The position numbers were made by a program, and so were the translations under genes. A DNA stretch of 64,000 nt from Candidatus Heimdallarchaeota archaeon (GTDB lineage Archaea > Asgardarchaeota > Heimdallarchaeia > JABLTI01). Positions 29,131-51,280 of the stretch are shown in pieces. The stretch covers positions 62,001 to 126,000 of the forward strand of contig JAHLVW010000062.1 in assembly GCA_019058275.1 (NCBI GenBank), in the 5' to 3' direction. The notes beneath the pieces are model-generated. The model saw nothing but the letters and a program-made list of their open reading frames with translations, ran no database searches and had not been told where the DNA came from. Position 1 is the first letter of the stretch. Each line of letters opens with the position of its first letter.

Positions 29131-29508
29131 TTAAATTAGATATTCCTCAACAATTTTAGTAATTTGATAATCTCGATATTCGTTTATTTCAACTACACTA
29201 TGATCTATTTTCTTAAAGAATTTTTCTTGGTGTAGTTTGAAAGCTAATTCACGAAGTTTTTCTCTTAAAAGAAATGTTTCTCTCGAGACAACAAGTGCTA
29301 TAAAACTCTCTGTACCAGTTTCTAACATAATTGATATGTCTCCATGATCTATTAGCTTTAATCCACCTTCTTTTGCTTCAAGAATAGTTTGACCCATAGT
29401 ACGGATTGCTGAAAGCAATCCTGAAAGTAGATTTGGATCTATTCTTTTCTGTTCACCAAATTCCTTTTGGTAGAATGATAATCCAGTTTTCTTTGAGATA
29501 ATATACAA
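29131..29508 (-). CDS. Longin/roadblock-like domain, third piece of a frameshifted TPR gene
   Basis: The 125 residues LYIISKKTGLSFYQKEF...LLSGLLSAIRTMGQTI...SFIALVVSRETFLLREKLRELAFKLHQEKF match the C-terminal domain of the intact TPR protein at 15.2 kb. The frame is open further upstream to base 29619 and reads ...SFESVTKPKTVEAEIKALYIIS, a typical linker, so the TTG at 29508 is probably not a real start. The stretch overlaps the end of the previous ORF by about 20 bases, which contain the run TAAAAGAAAAG. A +1 shift there would join them. Treat it as part of one TPR-sensor gene that is mutated, mis-sequenced or recoded. Confidence 0.55.
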   Translation of the reverse strand: MYIISKKTGLSFYQKEFGEQKRIDPNLLSGLLSAIRTMGQTILEAKEGGLKLIDHGDISIMLETGTESFIALVVSRETFLLREKLRELAFKLHQEKFFKKIDHSVVEINEYRDYQITKIVEEYLI

Positions 29509-29599
29509 TGCTTTTATTTCAGCTTCAACTGTTTTTGGTTTAGTTACACTTTCGAAAGAAATAGTGTTACGAATAGATTGGTTTATTCTAGTGAAAATT

Positions 29600-30043
29600 C
29601 TAACAAGTATGCTTTTCTTTTACAATTTCCTTTAGTTGATTTCTTGCTTCTTGTTCCTTTTCAGGTAAGTTTAATTCTTTGGCTAAATTGATTGCTTCAT
29701 CTAATACTTTCTTATTATCCTTTTGCTGGTTATTCATAGACAGAAGTAAACTTTGTAAGATAAACACATCAATTAAAACCAATTTGTAGTCTTGCTCTAT
29801 ACATAATTGCCTTGTATCTTCTATTTTTCTTAATGCATTTGCAATAAGTATAGACTCATTTGTCTTCCTATATCGAAGTAAATCAATCTCTGCAAGCTGA
29901 AGTTTGGCATTAACAATTATCTCGAGTAAATTGTTTTCATAAGCAATTTCCAAAGCATCTTGCAAGAATTTACTTGCTTCACCTAAATTTGATTGTCTTG
30001 CAGATAACCTGACTTTTTCTAAGAAATACTTTGGATGATTCAT
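29600..30043 (-). CDS. TPR segment, second piece of a frameshifted gene
   Basis: The 147 residues consist of TPR-like helices (FLEKVRLSARQSNLGEASKFLQDALEIAYENNLLEIIVNAKLQLAEIDLLRYR; LDEAINLAKELNLPEKEQEARNQLKEIV). The overlap with the upstream ORF is about 65 bases in another frame. In the upstream frame the sequence reads VFLRKSQV and in this frame YFLEKVRLSA, which is the natural TPR continuation, so the shift probably lies at the A5 run in TTAGAAAAAGTC. The ATG at 30043 is then internal. See the findings for the whole locus. Confidence 0.55.
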   Translation of the reverse strand: MNHPKYFLEKVRLSARQSNLGEASKFLQDALEIAYENNLLEIIVNAKLQLAEIDLLRYRKTNESILIANALRKIEDTRQLCIEQDYKLVLIDVFILQSLLLSMNNQQKDNKKVLDEAINLAKELNLPEKEQEARNQLKEIVKEKHTC

Positions 30044-31217
30044 TGGTCAGATTAGCTTCATTAATATCAATTAACGCTTCATCTAATATCTTATCAGCAT
30101 CATTAAATTGATCAAGATTTTCATATATATCAGCACGACACAAATCTAGTGTAATCTTAATTTGTGGTGGAATAGGCACTTTACTTTTGTTAAGGTTTTC
30201 TAAAGCAATTTCTGAATTAGATAAAGCAAGTTTTGGATTACCAAAATCAAGATGAAGGTGAGCAATATTTGTTTCAGAAGCAACAATATAAAGAGAAATA
30301 TTAGCTTTCTTTGAATTCTCTAATGCAATGTAGAAGTATTTCATAGCACTCTCAATATCACCCATATTTCTGTAGATAAAGCCAATATTATTGGCACTAA
30401 TTGCTAGCTGCACCTCATTTGCTAATATTTGAGAAAATTTGAAGTGTTCTTCAAGATACCCAAGACCATCTTTCAAATTCCCACTTTCAATCAGACAAAG
30501 AGCAGTATTATTCAATAATCTATTCAGCAAATACCTGTTTTGATTTTTCCTAATAAGATAGATTAACTCATTACCTATAGTCGCACCCTCTTCCAAATTG
30601 CCCTCTCTTCTTCTCAAATTGATTAATATGGACTTTCCTAATGCATATGCTTCAGTAATTGCTATTAGTAGATTATCATCAGTAGAATATCTATCACACA
30701 ATTCCCTGTAAAGATGAGTAAAATTCTCTATTTCATTTGGAATCTTATCAAAATCTTGTGAGTAATAATAAAATAATAATCGATTTGCATTAGCTAATAA
30801 GAAGTTATATGGATCAATATGCTGAGATAGCTCATTTGCTTTCTCTATTATTTTTTTTACTTCATCAAATTTTCTTTGTGAAATTAGAGTATAAGCTTCT
30901 ACATTAAATAAACCTGGATGTAAATCATCCAACGACACTATCTCGAAAACTTTGTTATATTTTCCTTGAATCTGATAAGCATTAGCAGCTAAAAATAAGA
31001 ACTCAGAATTTCTGGTAATTATTCCTTTTCTTTCGTAAAGTTCAATTATTCCATCTAGAAAGTTCTTAAGCTTATCCACCCCACTTTTGGAAATCTTTTG
31101 AACATGTGTAATAATTGCTTCTCTGAAGTTATCTTCTAAACGCCAATAATGTACGAGTAATTCATTGGGCCAAAGGTTTAGTATTTCCATTTGCTTAACC
31201 ATAGAAATTGAATGCAT
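29979..31217 (-). CDS. TPR-repeat protein, N-terminal piece of a frameshifted gene
   Basis: The 412 residues are a TPR array (LAISANNIGFIYRNMGDIESAMKYFYIALENSKKANISLYIVASETNIAHLHLDFGNPKLALSNSEIALENL). Its start WPNELLVHYWRLEDNFREAIITHVQK and the overall helical rhythm parallel those of the 701-residue TPR protein at 15.2 kb. It ends early with a non-TPR tail (SQVICKTIKFR) produced by a frame change, while the TPR continues in the next frame. Adding the three pieces gives roughly 690 residues, close to the intact homologue. It is divided by a short gap from the PAS gene, which lies on the same strand upstream. Confidence 0.6.
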   Translation of the reverse strand: MHSISMVKQMEILNLWPNELLVHYWRLEDNFREAIITHVQKISKSGVDKLKNFLDGIIELYERKGIITRNSEFLFLAANAYQIQGKYNKVFEIVSLDDLHPGLFNVEAYTLISQRKFDEVKKIIEKANELSQHIDPYNFLLANANRLLFYYYSQDFDKIPNEIENFTHLYRELCDRYSTDDNLLIAITEAYALGKSILINLRRREGNLEEGATIGNELIYLIRKNQNRYLLNRLLNNTALCLIESGNLKDGLGYLEEHFKFSQILANEVQLAISANNIGFIYRNMGDIESAMKYFYIALENSKKANISLYIVASETNIAHLHLDFGNPKLALSNSEIALENLNKSKVPIPPQIKITLDLCRADIYENLDQFNDADKILDEALIDINEANLTNESSKVFLRKSQVICKTIKFR

Positions 31218-40790: not shown

Positions 40791-41048
40791 GTGTTATTTA
40801 TTATTTTAATTCGTCAACTTAGTACAATAAAAAGTGAACCAGTAACTAATTATGGTTCAACAAAAACAAATATTCAATGGCTTATTAGCAAAGAACAAGG
40901 AGCTCCAAGATTTGCTATGAGACTTTTCACTTTAAAACCTGGGGCAAATATAGGCATTCATAGTCATCCAGAAGAACATGAAATCTATATCGTACAAGGT
41001 GAATGTGCTCTTATCTCTGAGGATGGAACAAGAATATATTATTTTTAA
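40791..41048 (+). pseudogene. Cupin gene, 5' half
   Basis: The frame encodes SEPVTNYGSTKTNIQWLISKEQGAPRFAMRLFTLKPGANIGIHSHPEEHEIYIVQGECALISEDGTR, the first cupin motif with its metal-binding His-x-His...Glu, then stops after four unrelated residues (IYYF). The second motif (the P-D-x-x-H-x-x-x-N part) is missing. The GTG start adds a poor N-terminus; the family start would be near the ATA in ACAATAAAAAGTGAA, perhaps a lost ATG. A terminator hairpin follows directly. The missing half has a divergent counterpart at 47.2 kb, across the ABC cassette. Confidence 0.7.
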
Positions 41049-41066
41049 GCTATATTTATCTTAAGG

Positions 41067-41096
41067 GAAGAATAATAAAGTATTCTTCTTTTTTTT
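41067..41096 (+). terminator. Stem-loop with T8 tail
   Basis: GAAGAATA-ataaag-TATTCTTC is a perfect 8-bp stem with a 6-base loop, followed by eight T residues. It ends transcription from the truncated cupin before the ABC cassette. Confidence 0.6.
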
Positions 41097-41118
41097 AAAA
41101 TGAATGGTGATTTAATAG

Positions 41119-43830
41119 ATGAAAAACAGGAATCTATTTACAATTTTCTTTAGAAGATATTTCACAAAAATAATTCCTTCCTTTATTGTAAGCTTTATGA
41201 TTTTTTGCATAATTGGAGCGATTTCAATACTGGTCGCACATCAATCAAATCTAGCATTCAAAGAAGCAATTTCAAATGGATATTCCGATTTAGATGGTAA
41301 AATATCATCACCAGGAGGATTTGAGGATCTAGATTTAGAGGATATTCCTTTAAAACTAAGTAATATATCAATAGATTCTAACCTTTCTGTTTGTTTTAGC
41401 GTAATCATTGCTGTCAACATAGTTGCAGAGAATAATGAAACTTTTACTATTCCTTTTTTTGGTCTTGATGATAATCTATTGACTAGAATGAACATTTCAG
41501 ATAGGAATTCAATTGTAACTAGAATGGACCAAGACTTGATTAATGTTTCCTCGATAGATGATAGCTCAAAAAACTACCAAATATCAATAAATGAGAATGA
41601 GAGTATAGTCAATGATTGGCTATTTTCAAGCATAATTAGAAAAACCCAAAGTTATTATAGTCTCCAATTAAAACATGATAAATATAATTACAGAAAATAT
41701 TTTCTAATGGGAAATCTAAGTTTTTGTATTGAGGTTGCAAAGGAATTAGAAATTACTGAAGCTAATGTAGGTAGTTTTTTCTATGGTTTTATTGATGAAA
41801 GTATTTTAGAGAATTTCTCTCCTGAAGAAGTACTTGACATAATAGATCAATATGAAAAAAATCTTTATTTGGAATTAGTTAGAATTGGAATAGACCCTGA
41901 TTACATAAGTATTTCTTCTTCAATAGATATAGATATACATAATACGTTGGTTTCAATTTATAGTGATATATATGATATACAATTGTTGTCAATTCCAAAT
42001 ATAGTACTTATATTCCTGCTAATTTTTACAATAGACGTAGGAGTTAATGGAATATTGAAAAGCCTAAGAAAGAAACTTTGGTTAAAAGGTTTCTCAGATA
42101 GAAAAATAAATACAATGTTCTTTATTATTGAGATTATTCCAGATTTGGCAGCATTTTTGTTGTCTATGCTTCTAGTTTTATTACTTGGACAAATTCTAAA
42201 CATAACAAATTTACTTAATATCACATTTGTAAAAACATTAGGTCTGACTTTTATAATCATCATTCTCTGTAAAGTTATTAATTTCTTCTTTCTAAACAAG
42301 ACTAAAAGAAATGGTACAACTGAAGAATCAGTTTCCAAAAGATTGTCTGATAGAACTCTCAATATTGTTAAAATTTCAAGTATTGTCTTATTGATGCTAG
42401 TTGTTTTTATGCAAATTGCTCGAGTATTTACTTCTCTTTTTTGGTTTCCACTTATTAACGGGTCAACAAAAATAATTTTCGATGTATTTACAGCGATAAT
42501 ATTACTTTTGATTATCATAATTTTATTTTCTTCTAAGTTTAAAGGGAAATCTGTTTTTTCTAAACAAAGTAAATTAAGAAATCTTTTCAAAAGATTGTTT
42601 ACAAATGAAAAGAAGAAGATTTTAGCTCAACAATTAATAGTTTTTAGCTTCTATTTATTATTGACATTTATGATTGTTAATTATCAAGCAATGAGTGTAT
42701 ATTCAAATAGAAATGAAAATATTTTTGATATAGAAATTACTTATCATGGTTCACAAGATACGGGTATAGATCTTTCTCAGATTCAGAATGTAACTACTGC
42801 TTTACCAGAAGTAAAAAATATGAGTCTTGAAGATAGATTAGATGCTAATGTAATTTTTGATTTAAAACAATGCAAGTCTAGAATTTGTGCAATAAATACA
42901 TCTATTTATTCAGAAAAGGATCTTGGTTGGAATCATTTTATAGGTATAACAGGCGATTCAAATAGGAATATTCTTAGCCAGATGAATAATGGAACTATTA
43001 TCATTAGCCAAAAACTAGCAGAAGAAATAGGTGCAAGAGTTGGTGACTATATTACACTAGATGATGAAGATTTTCTAATAGGAAATGGGACTGGTGTAGA
43101 TGTTATTATCGAAAACCTAGAAGTTGTAGGAATTTCTGATATGTTACCAAAACTTCACGGGAATGTTTATTATTCAAATCCTTGTGCTATTATTGATTTT
43201 AAAATAGTTGATGATTTAAGAAGAAATCTGAATTCAACAAGAATCGCTCAAACACTCAGATTTGATCTTGAATATGAAACGGAAAATGAAACCTTAATTC
43301 AAATTTTGCAAAGTCAGACTTTAGACTCTTTTATAGAAATATTGAATTTGGATTTATTGCCTTATGTTTTTATTACTATTAATTCAGCTTCTTATAACAA
43401 TCCTTCAAATGTAGGTCCTTCCTACTATGATATCTATTTAAACTTTCTAAGGTTCGAAATTGCTTTCGAGATTATTTTTTTGCCAATAATAACACTAATA
43501 TTCAATAAGAAAATTCTTAGCTCTATAAATTCAAAATTCCAAATTTTAGGTTCTCGTGGATTTGATGACAAATTGATGAGGAGACATTATAGAAAAGAGG
43601 TATTCTCTTCAATTATTGCAGGAAATATCCTTGGAATTGTTATTGGAATAACTGTCTGTTTAATGAAACTTAGTTATAGTTTACCTAGTTTATTTCTAAT
43701 TGGAAACTTTAGTATTTTAATTGAAGCAGCAATTTTAATTTTATTATCAATTATTATTGGATTAGGAACTTTGGGAATGCTGAACATAAGTCTTAACAAA
43801 AATCTAAAAACGCTAAAAGATGGAGGTTAA
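41119..43830 (+). CDS. FtsX-type ABC transporter permease
   Basis: The 903-residue protein has the MacB/FtsX plan: TM1 near residues 15-40 (IIPSFIVSFMIFCIIGAISILVA), a large outer domain, then helices at about 290-315, 335-360, 370-395, 425-475 and 505-530. A second outer domain follows (about 540-770), and the last three helices include LPIITLIFNKKILSSINSKFQILGSRGFDDKLMRRHYRKEVFSSIIAGNILGIVIGITVCLMKL. The cytoplasmic loop ILGSRGFDDK is a typical coupling helix of FtsX domains. It is followed 5 bases later by its ATPase. Such transporters move lipoproteins or peptides, or act as mechanical signalling devices, rather than importing small molecules. Confidence 0.82.
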   Translation: MKNRNLFTIFFRRYFTKIIPSFIVSFMIFCIIGAISILVAHQSNLAFKEAISNGYSDLDGKISSPGGFEDLDLEDIPLKLSNISIDSNLSVCFSVIIAVNIVAENNETFTIPFFGLDDNLLTRMNISDRNSIVTRMDQDLINVSSIDDSSKNYQISINENESIVNDWLFSSIIRKTQSYYSLQLKHDKYNYRKYFLMGNLSFCIEVAKELEITEANVGSFFYGFIDESILENFSPEEVLDIIDQYEKNLYLELVRIGIDPDYISISSSIDIDIHNTLVSIYSDIYDIQLLSIPNIVLIFLLIFTIDVGVNGILKSLRKKLWLKGFSDRKINTMFFIIEIIPDLAAFLLSMLLVLLLGQILNITNLLNITFVKTLGLTFIIIILCKVINFFFLNKTKRNGTTEESVSKRLSDRTLNIVKISSIVLLMLVVFMQIARVFTSLFWFPLINGSTKIIFDVFTAIILLLIIIILFSSKFKGKSVFSKQSKLRNLFKRLFTNEKKKILAQQLIVFSFYLLLTFMIVNYQAMSVYSNRNENIFDIEITYHGSQDTGIDLSQIQNVTTALPEVKNMSLEDRLDANVIFDLKQCKSRICAINTSIYSEKDLGWNHFIGITGDSNRNILSQMNNGTIIISQKLAEEIGARVGDYITLDDEDFLIGNGTGVDVIIENLEVVGISDMLPKLHGNVYYSNPCAIIDFKIVDDLRRNLNSTRIAQTLRFDLEYETENETLIQILQSQTLDSFIEILNLDLLPYVFITINSASYNNPSNVGPSYYDIYLNFLRFEIAFEIIFLPIITLIFNKKILSSINSKFQILGSRGFDDKLMRRHYRKEVFSSIIAGNILGIVIGITVCLMKLSYSLPSLFLIGNFSILIEAAILILLSIIIGLGTLGMLNISLNKNLKTLKDGG

Positions 43831-43835
43831 TAGAA

Positions 43836-44498
43836 ATGACATATATAATCATTGAATCATTATACAAAATCTATCAAGGAACTGTTGAAACAGTTGCTCT
43901 AGAGAATTTCAATGAGAAAATCGATAAGGGTGAAGCTGTTGCTATTGCAGGCCCTAGTGGAAGTGGGAAAACAAGTCTTCTGTCTTGTATTGGTGGTGTT
44001 TTGAAACCAACAAGTGGAAGAATACTGATAGATGGTATTGATATCACCAAATTATCGGATGATGAGTTAGTTGATTATCGCAGAGATCAAGTAGGATTAA
44101 TTTATCAAGATTTTAATCTAATTGATGAATTTTCGATCTATGAAAATGTTGTTTTACCTATGCTAATAGCAAAAAAAACCAAATCAGAAATTGAAGCACG
44201 CGCTAATGAACTTTTAGAAGCATTAGATATTCAACGTTACATAAAAACTTTTCCAAATTACCTCTCAGGAGGTGAAAAGCAAAGGGTTGCTATTGCTGTA
44301 GCTTTAGCAAACGATCCGGATATTATCTTAGCTGATGAACCTACAGGAAATCTTGATTTAGCATCACGAGAGAATGTTATAGATATACTCACCACCAAGT
44401 GTAAAGATCTGAATAAAGCTCTTCTGATTGCTACCCATGATCCATTTATAATGAAAAAAATCGATCGTATAATTGATTTGCCAAAATTAATCAGGTGA
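43836..44498 (+). CDS. ABC transporter ATPase (LolD/MacB type)
   Basis: The 220-residue ATPase powers the flanking permeases. Walker A is GPSGSGKTS at residues 39-47, the Q-loop lies in QVGLIYQDFNLIDEFSIYENVVLP, the ABC signature is LSGGEKQRVAIAVALANDPDIILADEPTGNLD (with Walker B DIILADEP), and the H-loop is LIATHD. The phrase LADEPTGNLD is characteristic of the LolD/MacB/FtsE group. It lies 5 bases after the first permease and 7 bases before the second, so all three are one operon. Confidence 0.96.
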   Translation: MTYIIIESLYKIYQGTVETVALENFNEKIDKGEAVAIAGPSGSGKTSLLSCIGGVLKPTSGRILIDGIDITKLSDDELVDYRRDQVGLIYQDFNLIDEFSIYENVVLPMLIAKKTKSEIEARANELLEALDIQRYIKTFPNYLSGGEKQRVAIAVALANDPDIILADEPTGNLDLASRENVIDILTTKCKDLNKALLIATHDPFIMKKIDRIIDLPKLIR

Positions 44499-44505
44499 TT
44501 CCTAT

Positions 44506-46839
44506 TTGAAAATATCATTGCTCTTCCTTAGGAGATATTGGAAGCTGTACTCTCAGCATTTCTTTTATATATTACTAAGTATACTGATAGTTTCTACACC
44601 AGCAATTGGAGGAGCAATTTTTGATAAATTAACAATTGCAAGTTTTTTAAATGCCCAAAATAATGACCTTGAAATTTCAAATGATTTGGAATTAGGATAT
44701 TCAGCAACTAATATTTCAGATTTAGAATCAGTTATTCTTGATTTGTCTAATTATAGTGAACAATGGAACAAATATTTTTCAAATTATTCATTGTTGTTAA
44801 TATCAGATTATGAAGTCAATAATTTAACTTTTACAATTGGAATTGATTTTTCAATAAGTTCAACTAATTTAAAAAATGCTAATTTTCCATTACACCAATT
44901 TAATTATTTTAATAATAACATATCTTTAGAGAATTTTCTTGCAAGCTCTGAAATACCTTTTGAGGTATCATTAATTTTTAGCTATGATTTTTTCCAAACT
45001 CTGGACCTTACAGCTCTTAGAATTATGTCTAAAGTATCATATATAGGTCAAATCATTGATTTTAACACAAAAAAAATTAGATCACCTGAATCATATTTGA
45101 AATTTATTGAGGAGTTACTCGATAAAATAGATTATTATTTATCGACTAATAATATTCCTCTTTACAGCTCAAATGAAGAAAGTTCTTTTCAGATTGAAGA
45201 CATTATTTTTTACAAGAATCAGTTCGACTCTTTAATTTTGTTAATTTCATTAGTCACACTAATTATTACAATTTGGCTAAGTGAATTCTTTAGTGATAAT
45301 TTCTCAAAAGAAATTAGGAGAAAAATTGACAAATTATATATAAGAGGTTTAGAACACAAAAGAGAAAAGATTATTTCAGTTTTCATTCCATTAATTGTTG
45401 ACTTGTCCTGTTTTCTTTTTATTGGAATAGTATTACTTGTTACAAATATCATAATAAGCTTGGATTTTCTCTTGACAATTATTATCATAGGCATTTTTTT
45501 AATTTTGCTTATTTACAGGAATTATAAGAAATACAGTAAATCAGATCAAACAATTTTGAATTCTAAATCAATAATTTTATTTGTATTAATATTGGCGATA
45601 GTCTCAATAACACCTATTTTACTAAGGCAATTCATCTTTACTCTCATCCCAGATACCATCTATTCATACATTATACTCTTCTCTCAAGCAATTCAATATT
45701 TCATTATTACATTGCTTATAGCGGAAATATTCATCAAGAAAATTGCTACTAGACTATTTAGTAAATTTGGGATAAAAAATCTCATTAACAAATTATTCAA
45801 TAAAAGGGAATACGTTTTTCGACAGTTATTTCATTCAACATTGCTTTTAATATGGGGCTCTACAGTAGTAACTGGCGGTTTTCAAACTTTCTCTACTAAC
45901 TATAATCTAAATTTTGGGATGGAATATCCAACAGATTTAGTGATTTCTACTGATGTTTATTTATTTAATATTTCATCTATACAAAATAATGACAATTTTT
46001 CTTCAGTTATACCAATATCTCATACACAAGAAAGTTTCTTTTTAAACTATGATCTTTATTTAATGAATATTTCAGTAATCCAAAAGCTAATACCTAATCT
46101 AAAGAAATACTATGGTTTATCTAAGCTAAAAGAAGGTATATCCTATATGTCAAAAGATTTTGCTAAAGAATTTAATTTTGTTGATGGAGAATATTTTCCA
46201 ACTAAAATGGGAGAAAATGAATCATCTGTATATATTGACCAAGAGATTAAGATTATAGATTATTTTCCATTTGTAAAGAAAATTGAAAATAGACCATTTA
46301 TTGTTTCATCTTTTAATTTGCAGTATAGTAACATAACTAGAGTATCAAAACTTTATTTGAATATGAATAATGAAATCAATAAAAGTGTAGCAATAGAATA
46401 TTTAGAACAACAATTAGATATATCTGTTCAGGAAATTGATATGCCTATTTATGTGAATTATAATTTTCTTATTGGTATCTTTCAAGCCTATTTTATATTA
46501 GTATCTTTAGCTATAGTTTGGTTAAGCATAAAACAATTATTAGCAAAAATACGGATTCCAATGAAAACATTTTATCAGAGAGGAATGTCAATTAGGCTTA
46601 TCAAAAAAAGGCAATTTAATAACTTAGCTTTAGTACTATTAATTTCAGCTCTATTGGGTGTTTCATTAGGAATTCTCTTTTTGTTTCTTCAGCTACCAAC
46701 TGCTGTGTACACTATTCATCAATATTATCCTATACAAATCACTTTTTGGTATAGTTTATTATTTATTCCAGTCTTACCACTACTATATGATTATACTATT
46801 ATTACTCAAAGGAATTTTCATTTCTCAAATAATACTTAG
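44506..46839 (+). CDS. FtsX-type ABC transporter permease, second subunit
   Basis: The 777-residue protein repeats the permease plan: TM1 near residues 14-38 (HFFYILLSILIVSTPAIGGAIF), an outer domain to about 240, paired helices between 245 and 430, a second outer domain and three C-terminal helices (FLIGIFQAYFILVSLAIVWLSIKQL, FNNLALVLLISALLGVSLGILFLFL, ITFWYSLLFIPVLPLLYDYTII). The coupling loop TFYQRGMSIRLIKKRQFNN is visible. It completes a two-permease, one-ATPase cassette. Lys, Asn and Ile are abundant, more so than in neighbouring housekeeping genes, perhaps reflecting membrane content or different origin. Start is TTG at 44506. Confidence 0.82.
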   Translation: MKISLLFLRRYWKLYSQHFFYILLSILIVSTPAIGGAIFDKLTIASFLNAQNNDLEISNDLELGYSATNISDLESVILDLSNYSEQWNKYFSNYSLLLISDYEVNNLTFTIGIDFSISSTNLKNANFPLHQFNYFNNNISLENFLASSEIPFEVSLIFSYDFFQTLDLTALRIMSKVSYIGQIIDFNTKKIRSPESYLKFIEELLDKIDYYLSTNNIPLYSSNEESSFQIEDIIFYKNQFDSLILLISLVTLIITIWLSEFFSDNFSKEIRRKIDKLYIRGLEHKREKIISVFIPLIVDLSCFLFIGIVLLVTNIIISLDFLLTIIIIGIFLILLIYRNYKKYSKSDQTILNSKSIILFVLILAIVSITPILLRQFIFTLIPDTIYSYIILFSQAIQYFIITLLIAEIFIKKIATRLFSKFGIKNLINKLFNKREYVFRQLFHSTLLLIWGSTVVTGGFQTFSTNYNLNFGMEYPTDLVISTDVYLFNISSIQNNDNFSSVIPISHTQESFFLNYDLYLMNISVIQKLIPNLKKYYGLSKLKEGISYMSKDFAKEFNFVDGEYFPTKMGENESSVYIDQEIKIIDYFPFVKKIENRPFIVSSFNLQYSNITRVSKLYLNMNNEINKSVAIEYLEQQLDISVQEIDMPIYVNYNFLIGIFQAYFILVSLAIVWLSIKQLLAKIRIPMKTFYQRGMSIRLIKKRQFNNLALVLLISALLGVSLGILFLFLQLPTAVYTIHQYYPIQITFWYSLLFIPVLPLLYDYTIITQRNFHFSNNT

Positions 46840-47025
46840 TGATTGTTTTTTAAAAATGAAAAAAATTAATAGATAAAGTCTAACTATTCTTTTGTAAGCT
46901 TTGTTCGAGCGTTCACACTAAAAACATTTTCTTTTTGTTTTTGATGTTATTTTTTGTTTTCATATAATATGATAAAATCCCAGCGAAATACAGAAAGACT
47001 CTTTCCTATACTCTTGGTTTATGAT

Positions 47026-47124
47026 TTATTTAATCAGTGGTTTCCTATTCATATTCTCGTCTTCAAAGAATTTTTTCAGTGCTTCACTTTCGTAAAGTTC
47101 CTGATACTTTCGTGTCTTAACCAT
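47026..47124 (-). CDS. Possible 32-residue ORF
   Basis: Product MVKTRKYQELYESEALKKFFEDENMNRKPLIK is charged and coding-like, but no ribosome binding site is clear and no family is known. It lies in the otherwise gene-poor 46840-47421 region (580 bases), which also holds the cupin remnant. A remnant of a longer gene is as likely as a functional peptide. Confidence 0.25.
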   Translation of the reverse strand: MVKTRKYQELYESEALKKFFEDENMNRKPLIK

Positions 47125-47167
47125 AGTTAATACCTTATTTTTTGCATAAATATACAAAGAATTCTGA

Positions 47168-47386
47168 GTTTATAAATTAAGTAAAGCTACCTTCGTTCAT
47201 CCAGAAGAACATAAAATTCACATTGTTCAAGGGGAATGTGATTTAATTTCGGAAGATGGGACAAGAACCAAAGTAAAAGCAGCTGATTCCATTTACGTCC
47301 CTCCAGATGAAAAACATGGGTACGAAAACACTGGTTCTGAAACACTCAAATTCATTTGTGTTATTCCACTTCTAAAAAAAGAATGA
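47168..47386 (+). pseudogene. Cupin gene, 3' half
   Basis: The frame reads FVHPEEHKIHIVQGECDLISEDGTRTKVKAADSIYVPPDEKHGYENTGSETLKFICVIPLLKKE and then stops. It has the end of cupin motif 1 and all of motif 2 (PPDEKHGYENTG), but an in-frame TGA at 47165-47167 cuts off the N-terminal half and no start codon is visible. Over HPEEHxIxIVQGECxLISEDGTR it parallels the half gene at 40791. At DNA level the shared part is clearly diverged after the first 15 identical bases, so this is not a fresh target-site duplication. Confidence 0.65.
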
Positions 47387-47421
47387 ATATGATGAAATAA
47401 AAACTATCTATTCATCATTTC

Positions 47422-48774
47422 TTATTTCCAATTTTTAAATTCATCAATAACAGTGATAATCATTTTCATTCCATCTATGAAATCATCAATGTAAATATTC
47501 TCATTTGGTGCATGTGAATTAGTATTAGGATGTCCACAACCTAATGAAACAACTGGCATATGATCACCAAAAAGGTACATCGGACCAGAACCACCTGAAG
47601 TTGATTGAATTGTTGCTTCATGATCATAGACTCTTTTGTTAGCTCTTTTACAGAGTTTTACAAAATCATTATTAACATAGGTTTTAGATGGTGGATAACC
47701 ATTTGACCAATCGAATGTTAAATCGCTAAATCCATTATCATCAAGGTATTTTCGAAGATTCTTGAGTATTTTCTTAGGATCTTGGTTTTTAACTAATCTA
47801 AAGTCAATCTTTGCTGAGGCTTGTTTAGGAATGACTGTTTTTCCTCCTTCACCTTGCCAACCAGCTGTGAAGCCACAGAGATTACAAGTTGGTTTAGTAA
47901 AGTATGCTACTTTTGCTTCATCATCATTCATACCATAACGGTATTCATCAATGCCAAAGTGTTCTTTTGTTTCTTTAGGATAATTATTGTATTTTTCAAT
48001 AACCTCTAGCTCTTCTTTAGTTATCTTTTCAATGTCATCATAGAAATGAGGTACGAGGATTTTTCCATCTTTATCCTTTAAAGAGTTAATAGCTTGTAGC
48101 AATCTTTCACCAGCATTTGGTAAGTGTGTTGCATTTGCGGAATGCGAGTCAATATCCATTTGCTTTACAGAAAATTGTACATAAAGTATCCCTTTAACGC
48201 CTAGAATGAACTCCTGGAAGCCTTCACGGTTACTACCTCCAAATTCCCAAATACAACCATCAACATTCTTAAAGAAATCAAGATCTTTATCAAAATAATT
48301 TGTGAGATTTTTACTACTACTTTCTTCCTCGGTTTCTATTACAAATTTAATATTGCATGGGAGTTCTAAACCAGCATCCAACCAAGCTCTAACAGCATGA
48401 ATTCTACAAACAATTTCATCTTTGTTATCTGCTGTTCCTCTACCAAACATTCTTCCATCTCTGATACTTAGTTCAAAGGGAGGAGATTCCCATAAATCAA
48501 AAGGTTCCGCAGGCTGAACATCAGCATGATCATAAATCATCAAAGTTCGTTTTGCACCTACATCCATCAAACCTGTAACAACAGGTCCTCCACCAGTTTC
48601 ATGAATTTTAGTTTCAAAACCATTTTCCTTCAATAGTTTAGCTGAGAATTCAGCAGCTTCAACCAAAAATTCTTCCTTAGCAGAAACTGAAGGAATAGCT
48701 ATAAACTCAGCTAAATCCTTTATAGCTTTGTCCTTTCTTTCTTCTATTAATTTGTAAATTTTATCAAGTGACAA
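47422..48774 (-). CDS. M20-family metallopeptidase / dipeptidase
   Basis: M20 enzymes are di-zinc hydrolases for dipeptides, N-acyl amino acids or similar amides. The 450-residue protein has the first metal motif IYDHADVQPAE (H83, D85), the bridging Asp in FGRGTADNKDE (about D116), the catalytic Glu pair in VIETEEESSS (about 148-151) and the C-terminal metal His in SLGCGHPNTNSHAPNENI. The lid domain lies between roughly 200 and 320. ATG at 48774 is consistent with the family start. The truncated GTPase lies just upstream on the same strand. Confidence 0.9.
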   Translation of the reverse strand: MSLDKIYKLIEERKDKAIKDLAEFIAIPSVSAKEEFLVEAAEFSAKLLKENGFETKIHETGGGPVVTGLMDVGAKRTLMIYDHADVQPAEPFDLWESPPFELSIRDGRMFGRGTADNKDEIVCRIHAVRAWLDAGLELPCNIKFVIETEEESSSKNLTNYFDKDLDFFKNVDGCIWEFGGSNREGFQEFILGVKGILYVQFSVKQMDIDSHSANATHLPNAGERLLQAINSLKDKDGKILVPHFYDDIEKITKEELEVIEKYNNYPKETKEHFGIDEYRYGMNDDEAKVAYFTKPTCNLCGFTAGWQGEGGKTVIPKQASAKIDFRLVKNQDPKKILKNLRKYLDDNGFSDLTFDWSNGYPPSKTYVNNDFVKLCKRANKRVYDHEATIQSTSGGSGPMYLFGDHMPVVSLGCGHPNTNSHAPNENIYIDDFIDGMKMIITVIDEFKNWK

Positions 48775-48852
48775 AATAAAATCATCCTTTTGCGTTTTGT
48801 TTCTATAAACGCATGAGCATTAATTAATTTTGGTACTTTCTTAGAAAAACAA

Positions 48853-49092
48853 TTAATTGAAATATAGTTCTTGTCCTCCAACATCGATAGCTGATAATGA
48901 CCATCCACTTATTGTTATTGGATTCTGTCTTATATCAATACCCAAAGTTGTTCTTGGATCTTTCATAACTGGTTCGCCAGTTTCTAAATAACGTACTAAT
49001 GTAGTTTTACCTGCTCCTGAAGCTCCTAAGATAACCAAGCTTGCTTTGAGCTCTACCTTTTTTTGTCCAAAAAGTTTTGAAAGCCAACTCAT
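48853..49092 (-). pseudogene. Arf-like small GTPase truncated after G3
   Basis: The 79-residue product is the first half of an Arf/Sar-like G domain. An amphipathic start (SWLSKLFGQKKVELKASL) is followed by the P-loop GASGAGKTT (23-31), switch I TTLGID, and the G3 motif in SAIDVGGQELYF. Then N and TAA end the frame; the following bases have further stops and no G4 or G5 (NKxD, SAK) anywhere before the M20 gene. Without half the nucleotide pocket it should not bind GTP stably. It is most likely a broken GTPase gene, though a short P-loop protein cannot be excluded. Confidence 0.72.
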
Positions 49093-49182: not shown

Positions 49183-50703
49183 TTATTCATTTCTAATTGT
49201 TATATCTCCAGAAAATGTTGCAATGTTATAGATATATTGAATGGTTTTCTCATCGAAATTTGCTGTTTTGTAGTATTCTTGTTCATTTGGTAAAACAATA
49301 TTTCCAGTAGTTGTATCTGTAGTGACTTCCACTCCAACATCTAATTCGCTCATTAAATAACTAATATCAATAATGCCAGATGAAGAATCAATATCAAAAG
49401 TTGCTGTATGATTAATCAATGGAATGGATTCTGGATAAAGATCTAAAACAATATCACCTGAAAAGGTCTCAATAATCCAAGAAATATTATTGTAAAAGGT
49501 TACGCCAATACAATTTACAGTTATAGAACCTGAACTACTATCTAATGCTATATCGCTAAGATAAATATCAACAAACTCTTGGAAATCAACTATTATATCA
49601 TCTGAAAATGTAGTAATTATTAAATCAGAAGCATTAAAGATACTTGAATGGTCAATACCAAAATTAATGTGGCCTGAACTTGAAGAAATTGTGAAATCAT
49701 CTAAATTTATATCAGTGTTATCTTCAAAAACAATTTCAATATCACCTGAAAATGTTTCAGCGATGAAGCTTGTTGAATCAAAATTTAAACAATGAAGGGA
49801 ATAAAAGTCAATACTTCCAGAGCTAGTTTTTAATTTGAAGGTTGAAGTGATGATCTCTGCATAAGATCCTATTTGCATTTCAATATCTCCTGAAAAAGTT
49901 TCAATAGTAAAGTTAAGGGAGTTCACAAGGAGATTATTAGATGCAAAGAAATTAATCCTGCCTGAGCTAGAGTAGATTGATACTGCAGCATTTGTAGTGA
50001 TATTTGTGTATGCTCCTAGATTGACATCAATATCACCTGAAAATGTTTCAATATCTAGTTTCCTGATTTCAACATTAGGAGTATCAATCATGCTAATATC
50101 AATATAACTTGAAAATGATTTCAAATTATATTCAATTGCTATTGCTGGATTTATAGTTATATAGAGCTCATGACGAATTGAAGTTTTGTCCCAATAATTA
50201 AATTCATCTTCAGCAAAGGAAATTGTTGTTCGATTGTTAATCATATTTTCTGAAAAGGACTTAGCATCAGTGATGTTAGCTTGGGATTGACCATAAACTT
50301 CAATGGTGACTGATAAAAGAGTGGATAAACTATTATCATGTTTTATTCTTATGTCCCCTTGAAACATATCCAGATTTAATTCGATAATCTCTGTTGTTTC
50401 AGAATGATATGTGTAGTAAAGATCACCCATGTAGTAATAGGTCTGGGTACTTCGAGTTGAAAAGTAAACAATAGGTGTAATTATCCCTATTGATGTAATT
50501 ATTATAAAACTAATAATTAAGATGGAACTTAGTTTCCTTCCTTGAATCTTCTTAGGTACAGGTTCATAATCAGTAATGGGTTCTTGATGTAGTTTCCTTT
50601 TTTCTTCAGTAGATTCTTTTACTTCCTCAATGATTCCACCACAATTATGACAGAAACGTGAATTATCATCTATTCTTGCTCCACAATTTTTACAATATCT
50701 CAT
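49183..50703 (-). CDS. Zinc-ribbon / TM / DUF4097-like repeat surface protein
   Basis: An N-terminal cytoplasmic ribbon (MRYCKNCGARIDDNSRFCHNCGG) is followed by a Pro/Lys linker, one membrane helix (ILIISFIIITSIGIITPIVYFS) and an outer domain of about 400 residues. The outer part is a right-handed array with alternating phrases ETFSGDI and SSSGxI repeated at least five times (DIETFSGDIDVNL, IYSSSGRINFF, IETFSGDIEMQI, TSSGSIDFY, AETFSGDIEIVF). This resembles DUF4097 / head-of-adhesin beta-helices. I start it at ATG 50703 because the zinc ribbon begins there; the track start 18 codons earlier adds an unlikely tail. Function is unknown; adhesion or envelope sensing is a guess. Confidence 0.7.
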   Translation of the reverse strand: MRYCKNCGARIDDNSRFCHNCGGIIEEVKESTEEKRKLHQEPITDYEPVPKKIQGRKLSSILIISFIIITSIGIITPIVYFSTRSTQTYYYMGDLYYTYHSETTEIIELNLDMFQGDIRIKHDNSLSTLLSVTIEVYGQSQANITDAKSFSENMINNRTTISFAEDEFNYWDKTSIRHELYITINPAIAIEYNLKSFSSYIDISMIDTPNVEIRKLDIETFSGDIDVNLGAYTNITTNAAVSIYSSSGRINFFASNNLLVNSLNFTIETFSGDIEMQIGSYAEIITSTFKLKTSSGSIDFYSLHCLNFDSTSFIAETFSGDIEIVFEDNTDINLDDFTISSSSGHINFGIDHSSIFNASDLIITTFSDDIIVDFQEFVDIYLSDIALDSSSGSITVNCIGVTFYNNISWIIETFSGDIVLDLYPESIPLINHTATFDIDSSSGIIDISYLMSELDVGVEVTTDTTTGNIVLPNEQEYYKTANFDEKTIQYIYNIATFSGDITIRNE

Positions 50704-50869
50704 GAAAACACCAATTTTGTCTTTAGTTACTACTGGAGTAGTGACATATATATACACCTTTTTCTATTCAAAATTGGAAAAAATATGGTTCAAATAGAAA
50801 TTTCCATGATAAATGTAAATTAGTTTCAAAGTTTCCTCTTTTAAACCTCTAAATTGTAATTAGTAATAT

Positions 50870-51280
50870 TTAATCTGGTTTTTCCTTTAAGTGTTGTATT
50901 TTTTTTACTATTAGCTCTAAATCTTCATGATATTTAGGAATCTCCATAGCTAGTGCTTTTAATAGAAGTAATTTCTCTAATGATATAATCAAATAATTTT
51001 CTTTTACTATTGCATTTTGATTTAGATCAAAATAATTATGCCAGCGTATTGTCTTCCAAATCTCGAAATCATAGATACAGACACCTTTGTCTCCAAAAAT
51101 ATCTTTTAAATTATTAGGGTATTTTTTAGCTAATTGAACATAATCATCTTTTATAACAATAATATCATTATCATTTCCTGCTTTCCTTAAACCATAATAT
51201 TCCATTGCTTTTCCTCCAACTAGCAATGGTTTCTTGATGAATTTGTAGTTTAATATTTCAAGGTTTAATTCCATCATCAA
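50870..51280 (-). CDS. Minimal nucleotidyltransferase-fold protein
   Basis: The 136-residue product has KKPLLVGGKAMEYYGLRKAGNDNDIIV near residues 16-42. A GG turn followed by a helix and a D-x-D pair (DND) is the active-site plan of pol-beta-type nucleotidyltransferases such as those of the AbiEii/MNT group. The rest is helical (LIISLEKLLLLKALAMEIPKYHEDLELIVKKI), like the KALA...K-x-H-DxxD ending of such toxins and enzymes. It overlaps the upstream CSK-motif gene by 4 bases (ATGA), so it is translationally coupled to it. Its substrate is unknown; AMP- or CMP-transfer to protein or tRNA is typical for relatives. Confidence 0.6.
   Translation of the reverse strand: MMMELNLEILNYKFIKKPLLVGGKAMEYYGLRKAGNDNDIIVIKDDYVQLAKKYPNNLKDIFGDKGVCIYDFEIWKTIRWHNYFDLNQNAIVKENYLIISLEKLLLLKALAMEIPKYHEDLELIVKKIQHLKEKPD

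Follow-up and report, generated by a model that had tools for sequence, protein, structure and literature searches.

Remnants of a TM1459-like cupin gene on both sides of an FtsX/MacB-like transporter cassette in a Heimdallarchaeota genome

Results

The window, that is, the whole stretch of 64,000 nucleotides analysed in this study, lies on contig C55 of G000, a 4.12-Mb MAG of Candidatus Heimdallarchaeota archaeon. It was compared with relatives labelled by G numbers, among which G003 is the nearest and G003, G007, G008, G001 and G005 belong to the same genus. An intact permease-ATPase-permease cassette (41119-46839) is bracketed by a 5' remnant (copy A) and a 3' remnant (copy B) of a cupin gene (Table 1). 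The first-pass annotation had described two cupin halves around a three-gene cassette, and both were seen at those places. Its 5' half, 40791-41048, is correct as an ORF; the homology, however, is narrower and covers 40803-41034 and 47197-47386. The GTG at 40791 is merely the first possible start in the frame of copy A, and 47168, from which the 3' half had been counted, is only the first codon after an in-frame stop.

Table 1. Features at the cupin/M20 locus, in window coordinates.
Feature	Position	Strand	Remarks
Cupin 5' remnant (copy A)	40803..41034	+	92% DNA identity to G003; 76-79% to G007/G008/G001
Left junction and cassette leader	41035..41118	.	Homology of copy A to G003 ends at 41032-41034
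FtsX/MacB-like permease 1, 903 aa, intact	41119..43830	+	Weak MacB_PCD match, below Pfam cut-off
ABC transporter ATPase, 220 aa	43836..44498	+	ABC_tran, E 1.9e-34
Permease 2, 777 aa, intact	44506..46839	+	68% aa identity to own-genome paralogue on C61; 49% to G008
Tyrosine-recombinase (phage integrase family) N-terminal stub, 32 codons	47029..47124	-	54% over first 26 aa
Cupin 3' remnant (copy B)	47197..47386	+	Cupin_2, E 3e-13; no start codon
M20 peptidase, intact, divergent allele relative to G003	47422..48774	-	86-88% DNA identity to G003
Arf-like GTPase, truncated, 79 aa	48853..49092	-	191 aa and intact in G003:C287

Copy A is closely orthologous to the intact G003 cupin. Its start codon has been lost, ATT standing at 40803 where G003 has ATG, and its frame runs past the end of the homology to a stop at 41046-41048, a few codons on. 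In the frame of copy B, no ORF of at least 50 aa with a usual start was found. Decay of the two halves had been proposed earlier, and the lost ATG of copy A and the absence of a start codon from copy B agree with it; both remnants are dead. A small hairpin followed by a T-run, recognized by eye, is located at about 41062-41098. Both pieces match Pfam Cupin_2, and when the 5' piece was compared at the DNA level with all of the genome, only the piece itself and the 3' piece matched (E 1e-11); their likeness is thus far beyond chance. They share a 71-bp segment (40964-41034 and 47197-47267) with 80% identity, of which the first 16 bases are the same in both. Since no other copy of the TM1459-like cupin, intact or not, was found elsewhere in the G000 genome, the cupin function in G000 appears to have been lost.

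The intact orthologue in G003 matches TM1459 of Thermotoga maritima (PDB 1VJ2 / 5WSD) over residues 32-111 with an E-value of 5.8e-17. The metal ligands of TM1459 are H52, H54, H58 and H92 (PMC5031596), and the G003 cupin keeps all four of these histidine positions in the alignment. Copy A holds three of the metal histidines, and copy B holds the fourth without the first of the HxH pair, a complete four-histidine site in one chain being absent from both. The destroyed gene is regarded as a single-copy TM1459-like cupin of the manganese type.

In the five congeners, one intact TM1459-like cupin of about 115 aa was observed in the same slot, adjoining the pyrophosphatase gene with or without genes between. 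An uninterrupted cupin at the same locus without this transporter, which the first-pass annotation had proposed to look for, is therefore present in relatives, and none of them was seen to carry both half-cupins together with the cassette, the pattern that the annotation had named as contrary to its own reading. All 34 relatives that carry the gene have one copy per genome (second copy, 0/34). The M20 peptidase gene follows the cupin in G003, G007, G008 and G005, with a zinc-ribbon gene between the two in G003, and in G001 a gene for an FtsX-like permease lies directly downstream of the cupin, at the end of the contig. In G008 (L047:6712-8946), a complete MFS transporter gene, oriented like M20, takes the place of M20 residues about 120-392, and in G004 a 411-aa ORF stands at the place of the cupin, followed by the last 40 bp of the cupin and then by M20. 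The cupin/M20 place is variable among the relatives, and the locus in the window is one more such outcome.

Permease 1 has a MacB_PCD score of 17.6 bits (cut-off 27) and no FtsX match in the Pfam search; it is 34% identical to its counterpart in G008:C21 and 25-31% to two paralogues in its own genome. The ATPase has the Walker A motif GPSGSGKT, the signature LSGGE and the Walker B motif ILADEPTG, and is 84-88% identical in amino acids to paralogues in G008:C21 and G000:C61. For permease 2, no Pfam match was found. Related cassettes exist in G008, G039 and G048 and elsewhere in G000. The DNA at 43739-46829 is 78% identical to the cassette on C61, where permease 1 is only 25% identical as a protein; this abrupt change at 43739 points to exchange of permease 1 between cassettes or to far divergence. 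In three related cassettes, a gene for a small secreted protein lies just upstream of permease 1. This gene is missing here, so the left break would lie just after its expected place.

The comparison of codon use that the first-pass annotation had proposed gave no foreign signature: in codon use and GC3 the cassette does not differ from the window (GC3 0.19-0.20 against about 0.21), and it has the same values as the paralogous cassette on C61. Therefore, the low GC reflects amino-acid content and not foreign origin, and codon usage gave no sign of a distant origin of the cassette. With its genes intact and motifs kept, the cassette looks functional. By analogy with its family, the FtsX/MacB-type transporters, its substrate is probably one of the membrane or envelope.

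Downstream of permease 2, 49 bp (46886-46934) show 80-84% identity to the sequence that directly precedes a gene recognized by eye as ESCRT-III-like in G002, G004 and G006, and to sequence preceding another gene in G003. They may be a conserved leader or promoter element. They were not taken for the end of a mobile element, the 34-base core having no second close copy in the genus at three or fewer mismatches. Sigma-70-style promoter matches were near background, and that consensus is not meaningful for an archaeon.

The integrase stub was aligned start-to-start with a 454-aa PF00589 protein of G003:C350, and none of 20000 shuffles reached the score. On the same G003 contig (L106:4851-9238), the intact tyrosine recombinase gene diverges from genes for an FtsX-type permease and a 551-aa ABC ATPase. 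The stub suggests that a mobile element may have been involved. Viral contigs, searched for the integrase, gave no match. In the window, we found no intact transposase, terminal inverted repeats or short target duplication, and no attachment sites, tRNA target or integration-site pair; the junctions share only the 71-bp cupin overlap.

A second breakpoint is located at 48858-48862: the sequence is homologous to G003:C386 as far as 48858 and to G003:C287 from 48862 onwards. Here the M20 leader meets the middle of the Arf GTPase gene, which is whole in G003. Several further genes lie between the Arf GTPase and M20 in G003, and G000 seems to have lost several kilobases there. As read from these alignments, the integrase start and the truncated Arf GTPase mark further breakage. 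Two differences from G003 were seen nearby: of the 524-aa protein encoded at window 49183-50757, G003:C287 (L091:2266-2490) has no more than the last 62 aa, and window 49396-51279 is missing from G003. Elsewhere in the window, the minus-strand region 29131-31217 contains ORFs of 412, 147 and 125 aa, of which the first two match successive parts of one 687-694 aa gene in G007, G008 and G005; this region is probably a frameshifted or split gene.

The DNA identity between G000 and G003 is 94-95% in the aligned parts of 1-19.9 kb, 94% at 35.6-37.2 kb and 93% at 37.5-41.03 kb on the left side, and 94% over 51.3-55.4 and 57.5-64 kb on the right side. The values for M20 are 86-88% and those for copy B 77% (82% in amino acids); parts of 38.7-39.3 kb are likewise lower, at 81-88%. 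Copy B is 73-76% identical in DNA to the cupins of G007, G008 and G001. Third-position identity to G003 is 88% in the pyrophosphatase gene on the left, 65% and 77% in the N and C parts of M20, respectively, and 53% in the cupin 3' half (29/62 differ). Against G004, M20 (82-83%) is more conserved than the pyrophosphatase gene (78%), so a fast-evolving gene does not explain the drop. In copy B, 26 of the 38 codons changed relative to G003 are synonymous; it therefore functioned as a cupin during most of the time that it evolved apart. Identity to G004 is 88% over the last 40 bp of copy B and the intergenic DNA next to it.

Discussion

Since identity drops in both the cupin 3' half and M20, the right side most likely stems, as a divergent allele, from another lineage of the genus. 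Either G000 or G003 carries the divergent haplotype, which in the window includes the cupin 3' piece, and the simplest reading is that the two halves are mosaic pieces of two alleles of one single-copy gene. We consider it probable (roughly 0.6) that the locus is a rearrangement scar, in which recombination placed the cassette between the 5' half of a resident G003-like cupin and the 3' half of a divergent allele with its M20 gene. For the order of events, the direction of transfer, the donor and the involvement of the integrase, we infer the following. In a source lineage the cupin would already have been cut by the cassette, just as a different gene cut the cupin of G004. The block composed of the cassette, the cupin 3' stub and M20 would then have recombined into a G003-like locus, its left end joining inside the resident cupin at the breakpoint observed at about 41034. 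Its right side would end at the breakpoint observed at about 48860, at a deletion that took most of the Arf GTPase gene. The proposed donor arrangement was found in no genome examined. Further points count against recombination between two alleles: divergence in the cupin 3' half slightly exceeds that in M20, which would also be true of a paralogue, identity dips at 38.7-39.3 kb, and the junctions have no repeats beyond the 71-bp overlap.

The first-pass annotation had offered two origins, insertion between tandem cupin paralogues followed by decay, and recombination that carried the cassette in. In the former, cupins A and B would be ancestral neighbours whose inner halves decayed or were deleted after the cassette had inserted between them. 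In favour of this, both copies are related to the G003 cupin and are 20% apart in the overlap, and copy B evolved under purifying selection. However, the absence of a second copy from all 34 relatives makes ancestral tandem cupins unlikely, and cupin paralogy does not explain the raised divergence that reaches into M20. Recombination fits better, the 3' half and M20 being more diverged from G003 than most of the window.

The block from about 41034 to 48860 might instead come from a co-occurring congener and have been wrongly joined into this MAG, of which the contamination estimate is 6.8%. Its divergence from G003 differs from that of both flanks, and both of its edges lie inside genes, as a chimeric assembly would have it. 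On the other hand, no long shared sequence that could mislead an assembler was seen at either junction, the contig extends over 266 kb and its flanks are syntenic, and similar truncations occur in other MAGs of the genus; we regard an assembly chimera as rather improbable.

The 71-bp overlap of the halves and the integrase-like stub inside would also suit a mobile element that simply inserted into one cupin gene and duplicated 71 bp of its target. The identities in the overlap are 65/69 between A and G003, 53/69 between B and G003, and 55/69 between A and B. Therefore, no duplication later than the split from G003 can have given rise to both copies, unless one of them was subsequently replaced; they diverged before that split. 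This upholds the earlier view that the overlap is not a recent target-site duplication, and since terminal inverted repeats are also lacking, a simple insertion is very improbable. That the halves are separately expressed, functional split-cupin genes can hardly be credited: the 5' half is readable from the GTG at 40791, but the start is lost in A and there is none in B, neither holds the complete metal site, and no relative keeps the split form.

A wider idea is that in this genus FtsX-like cassettes move together with a tyrosine recombinase and insert repeatedly at the cupin/M20 junction. It is hinted at by the integrase stub, the integrase beside an FtsX-type permease in G003:C350, the permease gene in G001, and the swapping of permease 1 among cassettes in which the ATPase and permease 2 stay the same. 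Even so, we hold this to be quite improbable.

In conclusion, the locus is a genomic scar of an ordinary kind rather than a new system. This study records a mosaic locus in a genus of Asgard archaea (Heimdall group), where a cupin that is otherwise conserved has been lost, and shows to what extent gene order and integrity differ between close species around one convergent gene pair. For annotation, the locus contributes two pseudogenes and a truncated GTPase, and it illustrates how congeners recombine.

The intact congeneric cupin resembles the TM1459-type manganese cupin in sequence and in its four metal histidine positions, whereas the gene in the window is cut between the third and fourth of these histidines. 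The cassette is like FtsX/MacB-type (type VII) ABC operons in its ABC-family ATPase, large permeases and weak match to the MacB core domain, but differs in having two large dissimilar permeases around one ATPase. Eleven transposase/integrase families are described in Heimdallarchaeum genomes (PMC8813620). The start of a tyrosine-recombinase gene within the inserted stretch is shared with integrases and mobile elements of Heimdallarchaea, although only 32 codons of it remain in the window. Scars of allelic replacement and illegitimate recombination likewise have gene stubs at sharp breakpoints and a local change in divergence. From allelic replacement scars the locus shows no categorical difference; the cassette sits between pieces of two alleles.
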